A stretch of 64,000 nucleotides of DNA, taken from NCBI GenBank assembly GCA_030425195.1, contig JAUIAV010000002.1, positions 124,001 to 188,000 on the forward strand. Direction: 5' to 3'. Source of the stretch: Gammaproteobacteria bacterium (lineage in GTDB: Bacteria; Pseudomonadota; Gammaproteobacteria; Pseudomonadales; Azotimanducaceae). Numbering within the stretch: the first letter of the stretch is position 1; every line of letters begins with the position of its first letter. The notes under the pieces were generated by a model. The model was not told the origin of the DNA. It ran no database searches and worked only from the letters and a program-made list of their open reading frames with translations. A program made the position numbers and the translations under genes. Below, one piece after another: positions 36,506-48,397 of the stretch.

Positions 36506-36708
36506 GAACTCAGGCGCACGCGGGGAGCCGGTTCAGATTCCGGTACCGGTCCAGACCCCGATCGACGAGCCCCGTATGGTCGTGCCCATCGCCTCCCGGT
36601 GGTGCGCCGACCTGCCCATCTGAACCGCTCCCGCTCCCCCTGCTGCTGCCGGTTTACAACGACGGGCCGGTTACGGTTCCATTGTGCTGCAGATTCAGGG
36701 AGATGGGG

Positions 36709-38616
36709 ATGAGCGTCAGAAACTGGCTGATGTCTGGATGTCTTGTCATGCTGACCGGGGGCTGTGGTCAGGATGATGCCGCGCAAGTACCGGGCGAGGC
36801 GAGCGGGCCGGAAGCGGCGCCGGCGGCGGCGGCGGACAGGTCTGATGCGGTGCGGACGAATCCGCTCAGGGACGTCTACTTCGGGGATACCCACATCCAC
36901 ACGGTCCTCTCCTTCGACGCCTTCCTGATGGGTACCCGGAACACGCCCGACGATGCTTACGAGTTCGCAAAGGGCAGAGCCATCGAGCATGCCTCCGGCT
37001 TCCGGATGCAGATGAAGAAGCCGCTGGATTTCCTGGCGGTGTCTGACCATGCGTTCTACCTCGGCATGATGCGAGAGATTTCGGAAGGCCGGATCCAGCA
37101 TGCGCTGTCAGAGGCGGTGAGAGGCGCGGTGGACCCGGCGGGTTCCCGGGCGGCCTTTACCGTCGCCATCGGCCATGTGGCGGACATCACCCGGGCGCGC
37201 GCGGAAGACCCGGCGGTGGTGGACGATCTCGACGACCGTGCGGTTGCCCGGTCCGCCTGGCGGGAGATCATCGAGGCCGCAGAGCGGCACAACGATCCCG
37301 GCACCTTCACCACCTTCATTGGCTATGAGTACACGGCCTCAGGCCTCGAATTCCAGAATCTGCACCGGAACGTGATCTTCAGAGGGTCCGAGGTGCCGAG
37401 CCAGCCGTTCGCGCGCCTGGACTCGATCAATCCTGAAGATCTCTGGGACTGGATGGACGCCAACCGGGAACGGGGTATGGAAGCCATTGCCATCCCGCAC
37501 AATTCCAACGGGTCGGACGGGTGGATGTTCCAGACCACCAACTGGGCCGGTGAACCCATCGACGCCGCCTACGCCGAACAGCGGATGCGCAACGAGCCGC
37601 TGGTGGAAAACACCCAGGTGAAAGGCACCTCGGACACTCACCCGCTGCTGTCGCCGAACGATGAATGGGCGGACTTCGAGCTGATGGAGCTCAGAGTTGC
37701 CAGCACGCTGCCGTCCCGGCCCGAGGGCAGCTATGTCCGCGAAGCCTACCTCAATGGTCTCCTGATGGAGGAGCGGGATGGCATCAACCCTTACCGGTTC
37801 GGCGTGATCGGCTCATCGGATACGCACAATGCGGCGGGCTCCTTCGAAGAGGACAACTACTGGAGCAAGACGGGCGTGCTGGATATCGAGCCGTTCCAGC
37901 GCGGCTCGGTACCGCTGCCGGATTCGCCGGCGGATGCGCCCGAGTATGCGCAGAGCACCGCCCGGTTCTGGGGTGCCTCGGGGCTTGCCGGTGTCTGGGC
38001 GGAATCGAATACCCGGGATGCCATCTTTGCTGCCTTCCGGCGCAAGGAGACGTTCAGCACCAGCGGCCCGCACATCCGCGTCCGCTTCTTCGGCGGCTTC
38101 GGCTTCGATGAGCAGGCCCTGATGGAGAATCCGGTGAGTCACGGATACGACCGGGGTGTGCCGATGGGCGGTGATCTCCCGGGCGCGGGAGAAGGTGCGC
38201 CAGGCTTCCTCGTCTGGGCGGAGCGTGATCCGGACAGCGCGCCGCTGGACCGGCTGCAGATCGTCAAGGGCTGGGTGGAGCATGGAGAGGCGCAGGAGCG
38301 GGTGTTCGACATCGCCTGCTCGGACGGCGCAACTCCGAACGCCCTGGATCACCGCTGCCCGGACAACGGCGCCACGGTGAATCTGGAAACCTGCGCGGTC
38401 CCGGAAGACAGAGGCGCCGGCCAGCTGCTGACTGTCTGGACGGATCCGGCGTTCAATCCGAATCAGCGCGCCTTCTACTACGTGCGCGTGCTGGAAAATC
38501 CGAAGTGCCGCTGGTCCACGTGGGATGCCGTCCGTGCCGGCGTGGCACCCAATCCGGACCTGCCTGCCACCATCCAGGACCGGGCCTGGACGTCGCCGAT
38601 CTGGTACCTTCCGTGA
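36709..38616 (+). CDS. DUF3604 domain-containing lipoprotein
   Basis: Lipobox LTGGC; VYFGDTHIHTVLSFDAFLMGTRNTPDDAYEFAKG, a DUF3604 (PHP-like) start. Confidence 0.9.
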   Translation: MSVRNWLMSGCLVMLTGGCGQDDAAQVPGEASGPEAAPAAAADRSDAVRTNPLRDVYFGDTHIHTVLSFDAFLMGTRNTPDDAYEFAKGRAIEHASGFRMQMKKPLDFLAVSDHAFYLGMMREISEGRIQHALSEAVRGAVDPAGSRAAFTVAIGHVADITRARAEDPAVVDDLDDRAVARSAWREIIEAAERHNDPGTFTTFIGYEYTASGLEFQNLHRNVIFRGSEVPSQPFARLDSINPEDLWDWMDANRERGMEAIAIPHNSNGSDGWMFQTTNWAGEPIDAAYAEQRMRNEPLVENTQVKGTSDTHPLLSPNDEWADFELMELRVASTLPSRPEGSYVREAYLNGLLMEERDGINPYRFGVIGSSDTHNAAGSFEEDNYWSKTGVLDIEPFQRGSVPLPDSPADAPEYAQSTARFWGASGLAGVWAESNTRDAIFAAFRRKETFSTSGPHIRVRFFGGFGFDEQALMENPVSHGYDRGVPMGGDLPGAGEGAPGFLVWAERDPDSAPLDRLQIVKGWVEHGEAQERVFDIACSDGATPNALDHRCPDNGATVNLETCAVPEDRGAGQLLTVWTDPAFNPNQRAFYYVRVLENPKCRWSTWDAVRAGVAPNPDLPATIQDRAWTSPIWYLP

Positions 38617-38640: not shown

Positions 38641-39420
38641 TCAGGGGGTGAGCGGCCGGTAGCGGATGCTGCGGAAATCCACGGGATGGGATTCGCTCTG
38701 CAGCGCGATGTAGCCGTTCTCGAGCAGGCGCACGGTCGCTTCGCCCTTCTGATGTGCGGCGGGATCGCTGAGCCTCGGGCCGTCGTATTCCAGCACGACC
38801 TCGCCGTTCACCAGATGCGTGAACCTGCCGCTGCCTCTGACGATCACCTCGGCCCGGACCCAGTCATCTCCGGGGATGGTCGGCGAATTCGAGTTCAGAC
38901 AGTGGGGTGTATAGAGGCTGCCGCGGAACATCACGTCGGTTCCCGGCGTGCACAGATTGTTGGTGGGACGGGACCGGGTGTCGTTCAGGCCGCCCAGAAA
39001 CTGTGCCTCGATGGACACGGGAAAGTCCTGGTGCAGCGACATGGCGTCGGGCGGTTCGGCGTGGAGCATGACGCCGCTGTTGCGTTCCGCCCAGGCGGGT
39101 CCTCCAGCGGCCTGCTCGCCGACGAACCGGTATTCGACCACCAGATGGTAGTGATCCAGCAGCGCTTTCCAGAACAGGTGACCGAAGCGGCCGTCGAACT
39201 GCTCATAGGCGTCGTAGCGGACCTTGAGCAGCCCGTCCTCCACACGGAAGGTGCGGCCGTAGTTCTCACCGGCGGGATAGCCGGTGATCTTCGCCGTCCA
39301 GCCATCGAGGCTGCGTCCGTCGAACAGGTCGATCCAGCCGTCGTCGCCGGCGGCGATCGCCCGGCCGCAGACCAGCCCGAAGACCAGCCCGAAGAGTAGC
39401 GCTGGGAGATGTCTGCCCAT
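38641..39420 (-). CDS. DUF1080 (3-keto-disaccharide hydrolase-like) secreted protein
   Basis: Signal peptide; WIDLFDGRSLDGWTAKITGYPAGENYG...NSGVMLHAE. Confidence 0.88.
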   Translation of the reverse strand: MGRHLPALLFGLVFGLVCGRAIAAGDDGWIDLFDGRSLDGWTAKITGYPAGENYGRTFRVEDGLLKVRYDAYEQFDGRFGHLFWKALLDHYHLVVEYRFVGEQAAGGPAWAERNSGVMLHAEPPDAMSLHQDFPVSIEAQFLGGLNDTRSRPTNNLCTPGTDVMFRGSLYTPHCLNSNSPTIPGDDWVRAEVIVRGSGRFTHLVNGEVVLEYDGPRLSDPAAHQKGEATVRLLENGYIALQSESHPVDFRSIRYRPLTP

Positions 39421-41349: not shown

Positions 41350-41970
41350 ATGAGGTTATCACTGCGGAGAACCGCCCGTCGGATACCGCTGCTCACCCTT
41401 CTGATCGGATCAACCGGTCTGGCAGCTCCCCTGGGGGACTGGAAACCCGTCCGGGAAGTGGAAGGCGTCACGGTGGAAGCCCGGGGCACCGCATCCGGAT
41501 TCAACGAGCACCGTGGCAGCGCCAAGGTATGTACCCGGCTGGACGTGCTCGAGGCGCTGGTGGCGGACACGGAACGGTTCCCGGAGTGGTTGCCCTATAC
41601 GCGCGACGCGGAACTCCTCGAAGCCTCCGGCGATGAGGTCACCTACTATGTTCGCAGCACCACGCCCTGGCCGCTCAAGGACCGGGACATGGTCTACCGG
41701 GTCACTCGCGGGTCCGATGGCGGGGACGGTGTGCACCTGGAGCTGGTGGGGTTGCCGGATCATGAACCGGAACACCGGGGCGTGACCCGGATGCGTGAAG
41801 CCCGTGGCGAGTGGTGGTTCAGCGAAGCCGGTGACGGCCTGATGATCCGCTACCGGCTCTTCGTCGATCCGGGACCGGTCCCCGCGTTCGTTGCCAATGG
41901 CAGGCTGGCGTCGACGGTCGGACAGACGCTCGCCAACCTGGCCAGCCGGTATCCCTGCAGTCAGATCTGA
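41350..41970 (+). CDS. START domain-containing (lipid-binding) protein
   Basis: Signal peptide; VLEALVADTERFPEWLPYTRDAELLEAS...TTPWPLKDRDMVYRV. Confidence 0.85.
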   Translation: MRLSLRRTARRIPLLTLLIGSTGLAAPLGDWKPVREVEGVTVEARGTASGFNEHRGSAKVCTRLDVLEALVADTERFPEWLPYTRDAELLEASGDEVTYYVRSTTPWPLKDRDMVYRVTRGSDGGDGVHLELVGLPDHEPEHRGVTRMREARGEWWFSEAGDGLMIRYRLFVDPGPVPAFVANGRLASTVGQTLANLASRYPCSQI

Positions 41971-43374: not shown

Positions 43375-43950
43375 ATGAATCTGTATCTGAGGCTTTTACT
43401 GACCATGCTGGCTGCCTGGCGCTCACCGGCGCTCGGCCATGAAGAAACGAGCGAGCGCCGCTTCCGGGTCTGGCCTCATGACATCGACCTTTTCGGTCAC
43501 ATGAACAACGGGCGGTATCTGCAGATCATGGACGTCGCGCGTGCGGACTGGATGCTGCGCACGGGTGTCATTGATGCCATGCGCCGAAATCGCTGGGGGG
43601 CGGTGCTAGGTGGCGGGGTCGTCCGCTTCCGCCGTTCTCTGAAACCCATGCAGACATATCGGGTGAGAACCCGCCTCATCTGCTGGGACGAGCGATGGTT
43701 CTATCACGAACACACCTTCCTCAACGGCGCAGGCCACTGCGTGGCCGTAGGTATCACCCGGGCAGCTCTGCGCAGCGGTGGGAACTGGGTGGCCTCCCGG
43801 AGCGTCGTGCGGGCGGTGAGCGAGGGAGCGGTTTCTCCGCCCCTGCCGGCCTACCTGAAGGAACTGCTCGACGCGGAGGAAGCCATGTTCCGGGCGGGCG
43901 AAGAGACCCCGCGCCCGCTCGACGAAGTGACGATGGAGGTATGCCGATGA
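43375..43950 (+). CDS. Thioesterase family protein (4HBT/THEM6-like)
   Basis: RFRVWPHDIDLFGHMNNGRYLQIMDVARADWMLRTG. Confidence 0.8.
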   Translation: MNLYLRLLLTMLAAWRSPALGHEETSERRFRVWPHDIDLFGHMNNGRYLQIMDVARADWMLRTGVIDAMRRNRWGAVLGGGVVRFRRSLKPMQTYRVRTRLICWDERWFYHEHTFLNGAGHCVAVGITRAALRSGGNWVASRSVVRAVSEGAVSPPLPAYLKELLDAEEAMFRAGEETPRPLDEVTMEVCR

Positions 43951-46900
43951 ACGAGCACAAGCCTTTCCTGGCGGCATTCTTCCGGATGCTGATCGATGCA
44001 CCACGCATCACCATCGGCCTCGGGATGATGCTGATTCTGGTCAGCAGTTTCGGTCTGACCAGGCTCTACAAGGATACCTCTGTGGATGCTTTTATCCCGG
44101 CGGATCATCCGTCACTGCTTGCCAACGACCGAACAGCGGAGATCTTCGGCCTGACCGAGCCGATCGCGATTGCCGTCATGAGCCGGGATGGCCGTACCAT
44201 CTTCAATTCCGAAGCGCTTGCGCTCATTGCCATGCTCACGGAGGCGGTCGAGCAGCTGCCGAACGTCCGTTCAGACAAGGTGATCAGTCTGGCCACGGAG
44301 TCCTCCATCCGGGGTGATGAAGGCAGCCTGCTGGTGGAAGCCTACTACGAGCCCGGCATGAGCGAGCTCGAGGCCCGGGATGCAAGAGCCCGATGGCTCG
44401 ACATGCCGCCGCACGTGAACAGCCTGGTGGCCGAAGATGAATCCGGTGCCGTGATCATGGCGGAGCTGATCGATGCTGAAGCGTCAGCCGGAACCTACGA
44501 AGCGGTCCGGGAGCTCGTCGGTGCCCATGGCAGTCCGGATTACGAGTTGCTGGTGGCTGGTCCCGGCGCCGTCAGCGGTTATCTCTCGAGCTACATCGAC
44601 CGGGACGCGCGGGTGCTGCAGCCGGTCGTTTTCGTGCTGATCCTGGTTTTTCTGTATGTTGCCTTCCGCAGCGTCCGTGCCCTGGCCGGGCCGCTGCTGG
44701 TGGTCGCGGGCGCAGCGGGAGGTGCGCTCGGAATCATGGCCTGGCAGGACATTGCCTACTTCGCCATCACCAATGCGCTGCCGGTGATCCTGGTTGCCAT
44801 CTCAGTCGCAGACGCGATTCACGTACTTTCGGGTTACTACCGGCTCCGTGCCGGTCGTCCGCACATGCCGCGCAGGGAGGTGATCGTGCTGACGATGACG
44901 GAAATGAGCCGGCCGATTACGCTGACGACGCTCACTACCATGGCGGGGTTCGTGGGAATCGGGCTGGCATCCATCATGCCGCCCATAGAGTATTTCGCCT
45001 GGTTCGCCGCGCTCGGCGTTGCGCTGGCCTGGCTGTTCTCCATGGTGGTGCTGCCGCCGGCGATGATGGTTCTGAATCTCAGACCTTCGAAGGCCTTCAG
45101 CTCCTGGAGTGCGGACCGGCCGGATTATCTCGGTGCGTTGTTCGGCAGGATCGGCCTGCTGAGCGTACGCCATTCGGGACTCGTTCTCGGGGTGTTTGTC
45201 ATCCTGTTGGTCATGGCCGCGGTTGGTGCTTCGCAGCTTCGGGTGGACAGGTCGCAGGTCGAGAATTTCGCGCCCGATGAGCCCATCCGGATTGCCGACG
45301 AGCGCATCAACCGGACGTTTGCCGGCACCGCATTTCTGGACGTGATCGTCGAGACCGGAGCGGAAGGTGATCTGCTGGAGTCTGGCCGCATGAGCCGTAT
45401 CGCCGAGCTGCAGACTTTCATGGACGGCCTGCCGCATGTTTCCAAAACCCTCAGCATCGTGGACTATCTGAGTCTTCTGCATCGGGCGTTCGAGATGCTG
45501 CCTTCCGGTGAAGCCCGGCTGCTGCCGCACCCTGAAGGTGCGCTGGCGCAGTACATGCTCGTTTACGAAGCTGCCGGCGATCCGACGGACTTCGAGGAGG
45601 AGATCGCCCCAGATTATCGTACCGCGCTCTTGCGCGCCGTCCTGGATACGCCGCTTTACAGTGAAAGCGTTCCGGCCGTCGAAAGGCTGTCCGAGTACCT
45701 CTCCCGGCATCTCGACGACCGGCATCTTCGGGGGACCATAGCCGGTGATGTGAACGTCGCCTATCACTGGATGAGCCGGCTGGAAACCTCGCACTTCACG
45801 GGTGTGGGGCTGTCCCTGATTCTGGTGCTTCTGATGTCCATGATCGCGTTCCGTTCCATGGGAGCGGGCGTGGTGTCGGTGGTGCCGGTGGCGTTCACCG
45901 TGCTGCTGCTGTACGGCGTCATGGGCTACCTGGGCATCTACCTGGAACCTGCCACCAGTATGTTTGCTGCCATATCCGTAGGTGTTGGCGTGGATTTCGC
46001 CATTCATCTGGTGGACCGACTGCGACTGGCACTGAGGCAGAACGATGGCGACCACGAAGCAGCCGTGCGGCAGGCGATGCCGGGAACAGCCAGAGCCTGT
46101 TTCTTCAATGCGGCAGCGCTGGGTGTCGGATTTTCCGTGCTCCTGCTTAGCGGCCTGCCTACACTGCAGCGGTTCGGCGGCCTGGTCAGCATTGCTGCTC
46201 TGGGGAGTTTTCTGTGTGCTCTGTTCATCGTTCCCGCTCTCTATGCAGCGGCGCATCAGCTCACCCGCAGCCTGGCGGCCCGGGCAGGCGGTACTGCAGC
46301 GGTTCTGCTGCTGATGCTCGCCGGTGCCGGTTTTCCGGAGCGGGCAGCGGCGGTTGAGCCGCTCTCGGGGCTGGAAGTCGCCCAGCGTGTCGCTGAGCGG
46401 GAGGAAGGCCAGGCCGCCCGCCGGACGATCCGTATGACGTTGACGGATCGCAGAGGCCGCGTTCGTGAGCGCGAAGCCGTCGTGCTGAAATACAGTACGG
46501 AGCAGAGCCGGGCCACCCGCATAAGTTATCAGGCGCCGAAGTCAGTCAGGGGCGTCACCTTTCTCAGCCGGGATGCGAAGGACGTGGGCCGGGAGGAGCG
46601 CTGGCTCTATCTGCCCGCGACGAGGAAAGCCCGCCGAATTCCTGCGTCGGACCGCGGCGATTACTTCCTCGGCACGGACTTCACGTACGAGGATGTGCAG
46701 TCCGACCTCAAGTTCGATGTCGATGACTACCGCTTCGAGTACGTTTCCGGGCAGCGTCGGGATGGTGCGGAAGTGCATGAGATCCAGGGCCGGCCCGTCA
46801 CACCGGCGGCGGCCCGGGAGCTCGGCTATGGTCGATTTGAAGCGCGGGTGGACGGCGAAAGCTGGATGCCCATGGAAATCCGCTTCTTCGATCTCAAGGG

Positions 46901-47102
46901 GGCGCTGCTGAAGACGATCTTTGTCAGGGACGTGAGGCGCGTCGACGCCATATGGACCGCGCACGAGGTGGAGGCCGTCAATCATCAGACGGGCCACAGC
47001 ACGCGGTTCGACTACCACTCGGTAGCCTATCCGGACACCCTGCCGCCGGACTATTTCGATGCGGCGAGACTCGACCGCATGAACGTGGTGGGATCTCCAT
47101 GA
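43947..47102 (+). CDS. RND/MMPL superfamily transporter fused in frame to a LolA-like outer-membrane lipoprotein-sorting domain
   Basis: N-terminal about 760 aa: two TM blocks and RND loops (ISVADAIHVLSGYYRLR, ISVGVGVDFAIHLVDRLR). C-terminal about 250 aa: VEPLSGLEVAQRVAEREEGQ...TRISYQAPKSVRGVTFLSRD...RWLYLPATRKARRIPASDRGDYFLGTDFTYEDV, a LolA-like (PF17131-type) sequence. Confidence 0.85.
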   Translation: MNEHKPFLAAFFRMLIDAPRITIGLGMMLILVSSFGLTRLYKDTSVDAFIPADHPSLLANDRTAEIFGLTEPIAIAVMSRDGRTIFNSEALALIAMLTEAVEQLPNVRSDKVISLATESSIRGDEGSLLVEAYYEPGMSELEARDARARWLDMPPHVNSLVAEDESGAVIMAELIDAEASAGTYEAVRELVGAHGSPDYELLVAGPGAVSGYLSSYIDRDARVLQPVVFVLILVFLYVAFRSVRALAGPLLVVAGAAGGALGIMAWQDIAYFAITNALPVILVAISVADAIHVLSGYYRLRAGRPHMPRREVIVLTMTEMSRPITLTTLTTMAGFVGIGLASIMPPIEYFAWFAALGVALAWLFSMVVLPPAMMVLNLRPSKAFSSWSADRPDYLGALFGRIGLLSVRHSGLVLGVFVILLVMAAVGASQLRVDRSQVENFAPDEPIRIADERINRTFAGTAFLDVIVETGAEGDLLESGRMSRIAELQTFMDGLPHVSKTLSIVDYLSLLHRAFEMLPSGEARLLPHPEGALAQYMLVYEAAGDPTDFEEEIAPDYRTALLRAVLDTPLYSESVPAVERLSEYLSRHLDDRHLRGTIAGDVNVAYHWMSRLETSHFTGVGLSLILVLLMSMIAFRSMGAGVVSVVPVAFTVLLLYGVMGYLGIYLEPATSMFAAISVGVGVDFAIHLVDRLRLALRQNDGDHEAAVRQAMPGTARACFFNAAALGVGFSVLLLSGLPTLQRFGGLVSIAALGSFLCALFIVPALYAAAHQLTRSLAARAGGTAAVLLLMLAGAGFPERAAAVEPLSGLEVAQRVAEREEGQAARRTIRMTLTDRRGRVREREAVVLKYSTEQSRATRISYQAPKSVRGVTFLSRDAKDVGREERWLYLPATRKARRIPASDRGDYFLGTDFTYEDVQSDLKFDVDDYRFEYVSGQRRDGAEVHEIQGRPVTPAAARELGYGRFEARVDGESWMPMEIRFFDLKGALLKTIFVRDVRRVDAIWTAHEVEAVNHQTGHSTRFDYHSVAYPDTLPPDYFDAARLDRMNVVGSP

Positions 47103-48397
47103 TCCGGCTTGCCGTCATCGGCTCCATATGGGTGACAGGGCTGCTGGCCTGCCAGACCGCCCGATCGGAAACGTACCTCTCCATGCCGGTGCGGCTGAGC
47201 TATGGATACGCTCTGGTACCAGACAGGGATCTGGAGCAGAGCGTCCAGGCTGTCCCAAGGTTGGAGACGGAAGCGGATCGATATCGAGCGGCCGTTTCGG
47301 TACGGCTCGAAGGAGATGTTCTGGACCTGCTCGAACCGGGGAGCCCGGACTTCGACAACTACGTGAGTCCGAGCAGGCCCTGGCAACTGGGTACCTGGGG
47401 TCGCCTGGAGCTCCGGGACGCCTTCATCGAGCTGCCCTTTGCCCGCAATCGGGCGCGACTGGGCAAGCAGCAGATCGTCTGGGGCAACCTGGACGGGATC
47501 AAGGTGCTGGACGTGCTGAATCCGCAGCGCTTCCGTGAGTTCATTCTGGAGGATTTTGCAGATTCGAGGATCGGCACCTGGAGTCTTTACCTCGATCTGC
47601 TGTCCGGGCCCTGGCGGGCCGAGTTCGCTCTCATCCCGGACACGACGACGCACGAGCTGCCGGAAACGGACGCCTGGTTCGAACTGACCGCACCCCGCTT
47701 CCGATACGGTGCTGGTCCCGGCGATCCGGTCCCCCCACAGCAGTCTGTGCGGCCACAGATCAGAGACGGAACCGTAGCCGTCCGGATCAGTCGTGAGCTC
47801 TTTGGTGTGGATCTGGGGGTGGTGGCGTTGTCTGGCCTGGACTTCGAACCTCTGGGGCGCCTCTCGATGGAAGAGTCTGGCATCGTTCTGGAGCAATACC
47901 ATGAGCGACGGACGCTCTATGGTGTTCAGGCGGAAACCGGCGTTGGGGGGCTGGTATTCCGACTGGAAGCCAGCTATCAGCCCGACAGGATGTTCAACCT
48001 GCAGACGGCCGGCGGGCTCGAGACGAGCCGGCTGGCGCAGTGGCGGGTCGCTGCAGCCGCGGATGTGGATGGGCCTTTCGGGCTGTTTCTGAATCTCCAG
48101 TACCTTCACGATCAGGTTATGGCGGCGCCGGAGAGTCTGGTTCGACAGTCCATCGATCGCGTGCTCACCGTCTTCGTGCGCCGCACGTTCATGCGTGAGC
48201 GGCTGCTGGTGGAAGCACGCTGGTACGGCGAACTGAACGAGGACGACGGGATGGCTCGGGGTCGCCTGGAGTATGAGCTGAGTGCCAATACCCGGCTCGG
48301 ACTCTCAGTCGACGTTTTTTACGGTTCCCGGGAAGGCCTGTTCGGACAGTTCGAGTCCAGGGACAGGCTGAAGCTCTCGGTCAAGCACACCTTCTAG
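47099..48397 (+). CDS. Outer-membrane beta-barrel protein (DUF1302-like)
   Basis: Signal peptide; LGKQQIVWGNLDGIKVLDVLNPQRFREFILEDFADSRIGTWSL; C-terminal KLSVKHTF. Confidence 0.75.
   Translation: MIRLAVIGSIWVTGLLACQTARSETYLSMPVRLSYGYALVPDRDLEQSVQAVPRLETEADRYRAAVSVRLEGDVLDLLEPGSPDFDNYVSPSRPWQLGTWGRLELRDAFIELPFARNRARLGKQQIVWGNLDGIKVLDVLNPQRFREFILEDFADSRIGTWSLYLDLLSGPWRAEFALIPDTTTHELPETDAWFELTAPRFRYGAGPGDPVPPQQSVRPQIRDGTVAVRISRELFGVDLGVVALSGLDFEPLGRLSMEESGIVLEQYHERRTLYGVQAETGVGGLVFRLEASYQPDRMFNLQTAGGLETSRLAQWRVAAAADVDGPFGLFLNLQYLHDQVMAAPESLVRQSIDRVLTVFVRRTFMRERLLVEARWYGELNEDDGMARGRLEYELSANTRLGLSVDVFYGSREGLFGQFESRDRLKLSVKHTF

Follow-up and report, generated by a model that had tools for sequence, protein, structure and literature searches.

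The gene that we analyze here encodes an RND (resistance-nodulation-division) transporter and a LolA-like domain in one reading frame, and it lies in a 64,000-nucleotide stretch of DNA (the window, whose numbering we use) from a gammaproteobacterium of the family Azotimanducaceae. Its closest described counterparts come from three other bacteria. In Castellaniella defragrans, AmeABCD provides tolerance to monoterpenes, and its deletion lowers tolerance and raises the accumulation of dye (PMC6394551). AmeD is an HAE3-type RND transporter, AmeB is a periplasmic protein of the LolA superfamily, and AmeA is a DUF1302 barrel, as in our locus, but all of the Ame components are separate: AmeD is an unfused protein of 787 amino acids, the AmeB carrier belongs to DUF1329 rather than to PF17131, and there is an additional periplasmic protein, AmeC (PMC6394551). 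(We did not recognize an AmeC-like gene beside our unit, and no profile search for AmeC was made.) This type of gene set, with an HAE3-type transporter, a LolA-superfamily carrier, and a DUF1302 barrel adjacent to each other, is found in the window and among the 80 related loci that we describe below.

The fused architecture is not new, as it was already reported in 2018 for TOL_3187 of Thalassolituus oleivorans, which has two MMPL domains and a LolA-like domain; the part of that report available to us considers neither an internal signal peptide nor processing (PMC6304351). We compared our gene to TOL_3187 via the published description, again in part, and, in place of an alignment to the T. 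oleivorans sequence, via a fused relative from T. alkanivorans (L143), which is a full-length homologue (~35% identity) with a DUF1302 barrel gene downstream. Acinetobacter baumannii A1S_0116/A1S_0117, from the acinetin-505 operon, also has the transporter and the LolA_like domain in one frame, with a DUF1302-like barrel adjoining. Acinetin-505 is a lipopeptide that occurs in the medium, and inactivation of a1s_0116 impairs surface motility (PMC5376624, PMC7997844). The match between this operon and the Acinetobacter locus that we fetched rests on the order of the genes and the lengths of their proteins rather than on accessions. Unlike our protein, to which it is just 25% identical, the Acinetobacter protein has an extra N-terminal Polyketide_cyc2 (SRPBCC) domain and is encoded in a nonribosomal peptide synthetase operon. 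By analogy, the Ame, TOL_3187, and acinetin systems may have in common that an RND pump, working with a LolA-fold carrier and a barrel, moves small molecules that are hydrophobic or acylated outwards.

A putative polyprotein

We propose, with moderate confidence, that this gene encodes a polyprotein that signal peptidase I cuts into an RND pump and a soluble carrier, and that both serve an export route through the DUF1302 barrel. Probably, the pump and the carrier leave the ribosome as a single chain that is later cleaved, and are not left tethered. What the sequences and models show is that the two parts are fused, how the genes are ordered, that signal-peptide features are conserved, and how the parts fold; from this we infer the cleavage, the direction of transport, and the kind of substrate. 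We also lean towards the more general view that RND transporters of a widespread class are synthesized together with a carrier in this way and are cut at a conserved internal signal peptide, with the DUF1302 barrel completing a route for acyl lipids. The parts of the proposed unit are:

43947-47102, + strand: the fusion open reading frame (ORF), 1051 amino acids, no internal stops
43947-46235, + strand: RND/MMPL (HAE3-like) transporter, amino acids 1-763 (Pfam/NCBIfam, AlphaFold, Foldseek, invariant columns)
46236-46352, + strand: junction, a predicted internal signal peptide, amino acids 764-802 (motif scans, column conservation, low AlphaFold confidence)
46353-47102, + strand: LolA_like domain (PF17131), the predicted mature periplasmic carrier, amino acids 803-1051 (Pfam, relatives in the PDB)
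47099-48397, + strand: DUF1302-family outer-membrane beta-barrel with its own signal peptide (PF06980, E = 4.2e-9)

Under this proposal, the ribosome would make a transporter whose C-terminus leads straight into the internal signal peptide and then into the LolA-like carrier. With its C-terminus in the cytoplasm after the twelfth transmembrane (TM) helix, an RND protein leaves the carrier one membrane crossing short of the periplasm. The signal peptide would re-enter the membrane after TM12 and export the carrier, and signal peptidase I would cut after A802. The products would be two proteins in a 1:1 ratio: a 12-TM pump, driven by the proton motive force and retaining a short hydrophobic tail, and a lipid-binding carrier that is soluble in the periplasm. 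Together they would supply the DUF1302 barrel with hydrophobic or acyl compounds, in an Ame-like export route.

How RND pumps that lack a TolC-type tunnel pass cargo across the Gram-negative envelope is an open question for hydrophobic compounds. A coupled unit that combines pump, soluble carrier, and barrel, and that is found in many marine gammaproteobacteria and in some other lineages, makes a compact and testable model. If our proposal is correct, then the conserved internal signal peptide makes the pump and the carrier stoichiometric partners, and the exact new N-terminus is predicted and could be searched for in existing proteomes.

The fusion itself had been noticed in a first-pass annotation of the window, and it is real. 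The frame is open, Pfam identifies a complete MmpL/HAE3-type RND transporter followed by a C-terminal PF17131 domain, and the same in-frame fusion is found in 71 of the 80 relatives. (A second possible start codon, also ATG, is at 43941.) These relatives are the 80 best in named genomes (loci L069-L148), and as the query is itself fused, the sample is biased towards the fusion. It is extremely improbable that a missed stop codon or a frameshift has joined two neighboring genes: relatives with split neighbors do exist, but the fusion recurs across independent loci, isolates included, and the coding bias is continuous, with similar GC content by codon position on both sides of the joint. This recurrence rules out an error of sequencing, frame, or assembly at the joint, which the first-pass annotation had raised as what would undo its reading.

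The transporter part has 12 TM helices and two large periplasmic loops, as in HAE3 and MmpL proteins. In Pfam, the ORF matches MMPL twice (E = 4.9e-30) and also Patched/sterol-sensing; the match to the HAE3 family TIGR00921 has E = 8e-53, yet is under its curated cut-off. D289 and H292 in TM4 and D683 and H687 in TM10 are invariant (D289 and D683 were checked in 40 homologues). These include the acidic residues in TM4 and TM10 that proton coupling would use, and we predict that the transporter is proton coupled. A Foldseek search of the PDB with the AlphaFold model (mean confidence, or pLDDT, of 86) matched MmpL4, MmpL5, MmpL3, NPC1L1, and HpnN. The fold is shared with MmpL3/4/5 and HpnN, which are RND proteins for lipids, siderophores, or hopanoids (probability 1.00; TMt up to ~0.8), but the sequence identity is only ~15% and these proteins do not have a LolA-like domain.

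The LolA-like fold also holds up. PF17131 matches amino acids 857-1044 (E = 8.1e-44; 149.9 bits versus a cut-off of 30), and the matches in the PDB (3bk5, 5e-31; 9tp6, 2e-29; and 4z48) are solved relatives with the LolA fold. We assign the domain to residues 806-1051; counted from the predicted cut it has ~249 amino acids, a small correction to the first estimate of about 250. We did not recognize a LolCDE gene beside the unit, and the partner of the LolA-like part here is the RND pump. The host genome has four further LolA_like matches (C36, C20, C3, and C21; L065-L068), and BLAST places none of these next to a homologue of the RND gene.

The barrel, which had also been suggested as a partner, is the only DUF1302 gene that we found in the host genome. 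It scores 36.4 bits against PF06980 (cut-off 23.2), and AlphaFold predicts a beta-barrel (pLDDT 92.8); a profile search of the PDB with the barrel gave nothing credible. The fusion ORF overlaps its neighbors by ATGA at both ends, with a thioesterase gene upstream and the barrel gene downstream, all on the same strand. The suggestion of a trans-envelope route for hydrophobic cargo stands, but the accompanying idea that lipoproteins are carried finds no support and is unlikely; the known relatives handle terpenes, a lipopeptide, or alkane-related compounds.

The junction and the alternatives to cleavage

The junction consists of a basic cytoplasmic stretch, a hydrophobic core of ~15 amino acids (GTAAVLLLMLAGAGF), and an AAA cut site, with the predicted cut at A802 | V803. 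The same progression, from a basic stretch to a hydrophobic core to small residues, is seen in the fused junctions of relatives, and at the matching place in split relatives there is an N-terminal signal peptide of the ordinary kind. By its sequence features, the junction reads as an internal signal peptide with n, h, and c regions and with conserved small residues at -3 and -1. (A separate LolA product from an internal in-frame start was also considered and rejected: there are just CTGs and one ATG, at amino acid 790, within the hydrophobic core, and no sensible ribosome-binding site.)

After a first, unrestricted motif scan, we turned to fixed windows and control helices, and we put weight on AxA, on position, and on column conservation. 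In the same scan, AxA was present in 56% of fused junctions, 50% of the N-termini of split LolA proteins, and 53% of the N-termini of DUF1302 proteins, versus 10% of the sites after TM1 or TM7. The looser [small]-x-A motif was present in 88%, 89%, 83%, and 44-58%, respectively. In a narrower fixed window, AxA was present in 37 of 72 junctions, versus 0-8 of 72 at TM helices that run from inside to outside. Even in the unrestricted scan, AxA was observed 47 times, versus a maximum of 41 in 500 shuffles that preserve composition. The linker is otherwise poorly conserved (median pairwise identity of 18%, versus 47% for the RND part and 50% for the LolA part), but the aligned alanine at -1 (A802) is retained in 66 of 72 sequences. 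In an alignment of 40 sequences, it is the sole residue between A764 and D834 that is at least 90% conserved. The fused relative from Acinetobacter has a textbook internal site, PKTSHA^DE.

In Bradyrhizobium japonicum, the cytochrome b-c1 precursor FbcH joins a membrane protein to a periplasmic protein via an internal signal peptide, and its cleavage was demonstrated experimentally. The layout of FbcH is the same as in our protein, although the proteins are unrelated. We did not find any paper on the processing of RND-LolA proteins in the literature that we searched, and the conserved internal signal peptide appears to be the part that is undescribed there.

The first-pass annotation had instead viewed the hydrophobic stretch as a former signal peptide that acts as a thirteenth TM helix and tethers the LolA-like domain to its pump, which could allow it to receive cargo directly. 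We consider an uncleaved tether to be possible but unlikely. The topology places the LolA-like domain in the periplasm with or without cleavage, so that part of the earlier view stands; a hydrophobic run of ~17-18 residues is sufficient for a TM helix; and protein fusions often serve to tether. However, a permanent anchor gives no reason to keep AxA and the alanine at -1 in a linker that is otherwise not conserved, AlphaFold builds no helix at residues 775-806 (pLDDT under 50), and split forms with a free LolA protein interchange with fused forms. Together with the site in Acinetobacter, these observations lead us to favor processing of a polyprotein, with a junction that, judging from its sequence and the model, may act like an intact and still cleavable signal peptide rather than a former one.

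Several points weigh against processing. Signal peptides and TM helices cannot be told apart by the length of the hydrophobic run alone (median 17-18). AlphaFold often shows linkers that are embedded in the membrane as disordered, too. The linker is rich in alanine, so the looser motif is frequent by chance: unrestricted shuffles average 62 of 72 for [small]xA, which makes its frequency not significant. Our cut-site score is simple and was set by hand, the 72 junction sequences are related and not phylogenetically independent, and six of them lack the aligned alanine at -1. As for the direction of transport, the authors of the T. oleivorans study proposed, in the part of their report that was available, that the system aids the passage or uptake of alkanes and not export: TOL_3187 was up 42-fold on n-C28 and the adjacent porin TOL_3188 appeared on n-C28 only (PMC6304351). 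The barrel and the carrier would then bring long-chain alkanes or lipids into the cell, with the RND protein used for assembly or import. Several of the bacteria with this system are hydrocarbon degraders by name, which fits. Nevertheless, we think that uptake is unlikely. Induction on a substrate is also consistent with the efflux of toxic or overflow products, the product of the acinetin operon is present in the medium, and loss of AmeABCD leads to sensitivity and to greater accumulation of dye (PMC6394551). Also, the RND proteins with the MmpL/HpnN fold (as computed here) and with known substrates are established exporters.

Distribution of fused and split forms

Among the 80 relatives, 71 are fused and nine are split, and the same fusion persists down to ~35% identity. 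At nearly all of these loci whose contig extends far enough, a DUF1302 barrel is next in line. The fused carriers include isolates of Luminiphilus, Marinobacter, Marinomonas, Thalassolituus, and Aestuariicella. Besides the window's own genome, we found 16 fused loci in 15 other genomes of the order (Pseudomonadales), and in ~10 more the RND gene and the LolA gene lie side by side but unfused. When 299 genomes were drawn evenly from the phylum, the LolA_like matches listed were in stand-alone frames, except for the window's own, which alone is in a frame of over 600 amino acids. This agrees with the earlier remark that the transporter, the LolA-like protein, and the barrel are usually separate genes. 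The fusion is rare overall and is concentrated in certain, mostly marine, lineages.

In a tree of the RND proteins, fused and split forms alternate, and well-supported branches force at least five changes. If fused proteins are cut, then the same mature products result either way, so easy interchange would be expected. A very divergent RND-LolA fusion (L059:4304-7483; 23-25% identity) clusters with split forms on this tree and is perhaps an independent fusion. Two records that are labelled as Acinetobacter phage (CAKLQF020000013.1 and CAKLQH020000009.1) contain the Acinetobacter RND-LolA exporter in a copy that is 99% identical; these are probably host DNA in mislabelled contigs.

Neighboring genes

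The gene just upstream, whose ATGA overlap implies translational coupling to the transporter, is:

43375-43950, + strand: 4HBT_2 thioesterase-like protein (PF13279, E = 3.5e-26)

It is a candidate source of cargo. A homologue (50-58% identity) overlaps or is adjacent upstream in 7 of the 80 loci, and the neighbor is conserved in the query's own subclade. For that subclade, the coupled thioesterase hints at a cargo derived from fatty acyl groups.

A small MarR-type regulator is directly upstream in 44 of the 80 loci (one was checked by Pfam), but not in the window. By analogy, this might resemble the arrangement of efflux genes that are induced by their ligands. An extracytoplasmic function (ECF) sigma factor (PF07638; 48538-49395, - strand) is convergent with the unit, and a homologue is near the unit in 7 of the 80 loci. 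About 2 kb upstream, at 41350-41970, is an SRPBCC/START-like lipid-binding protein, which is not kept as a neighbor in the 80 loci; in Acinetobacter, the RND-LolA protein carries an SRPBCC domain at its N-terminus. Also near the unit are a DUF3604 protein (36682-38616; E = 9e-226) and a secreted protein of the 3-keto-disaccharide hydrolase family (38641-39420).
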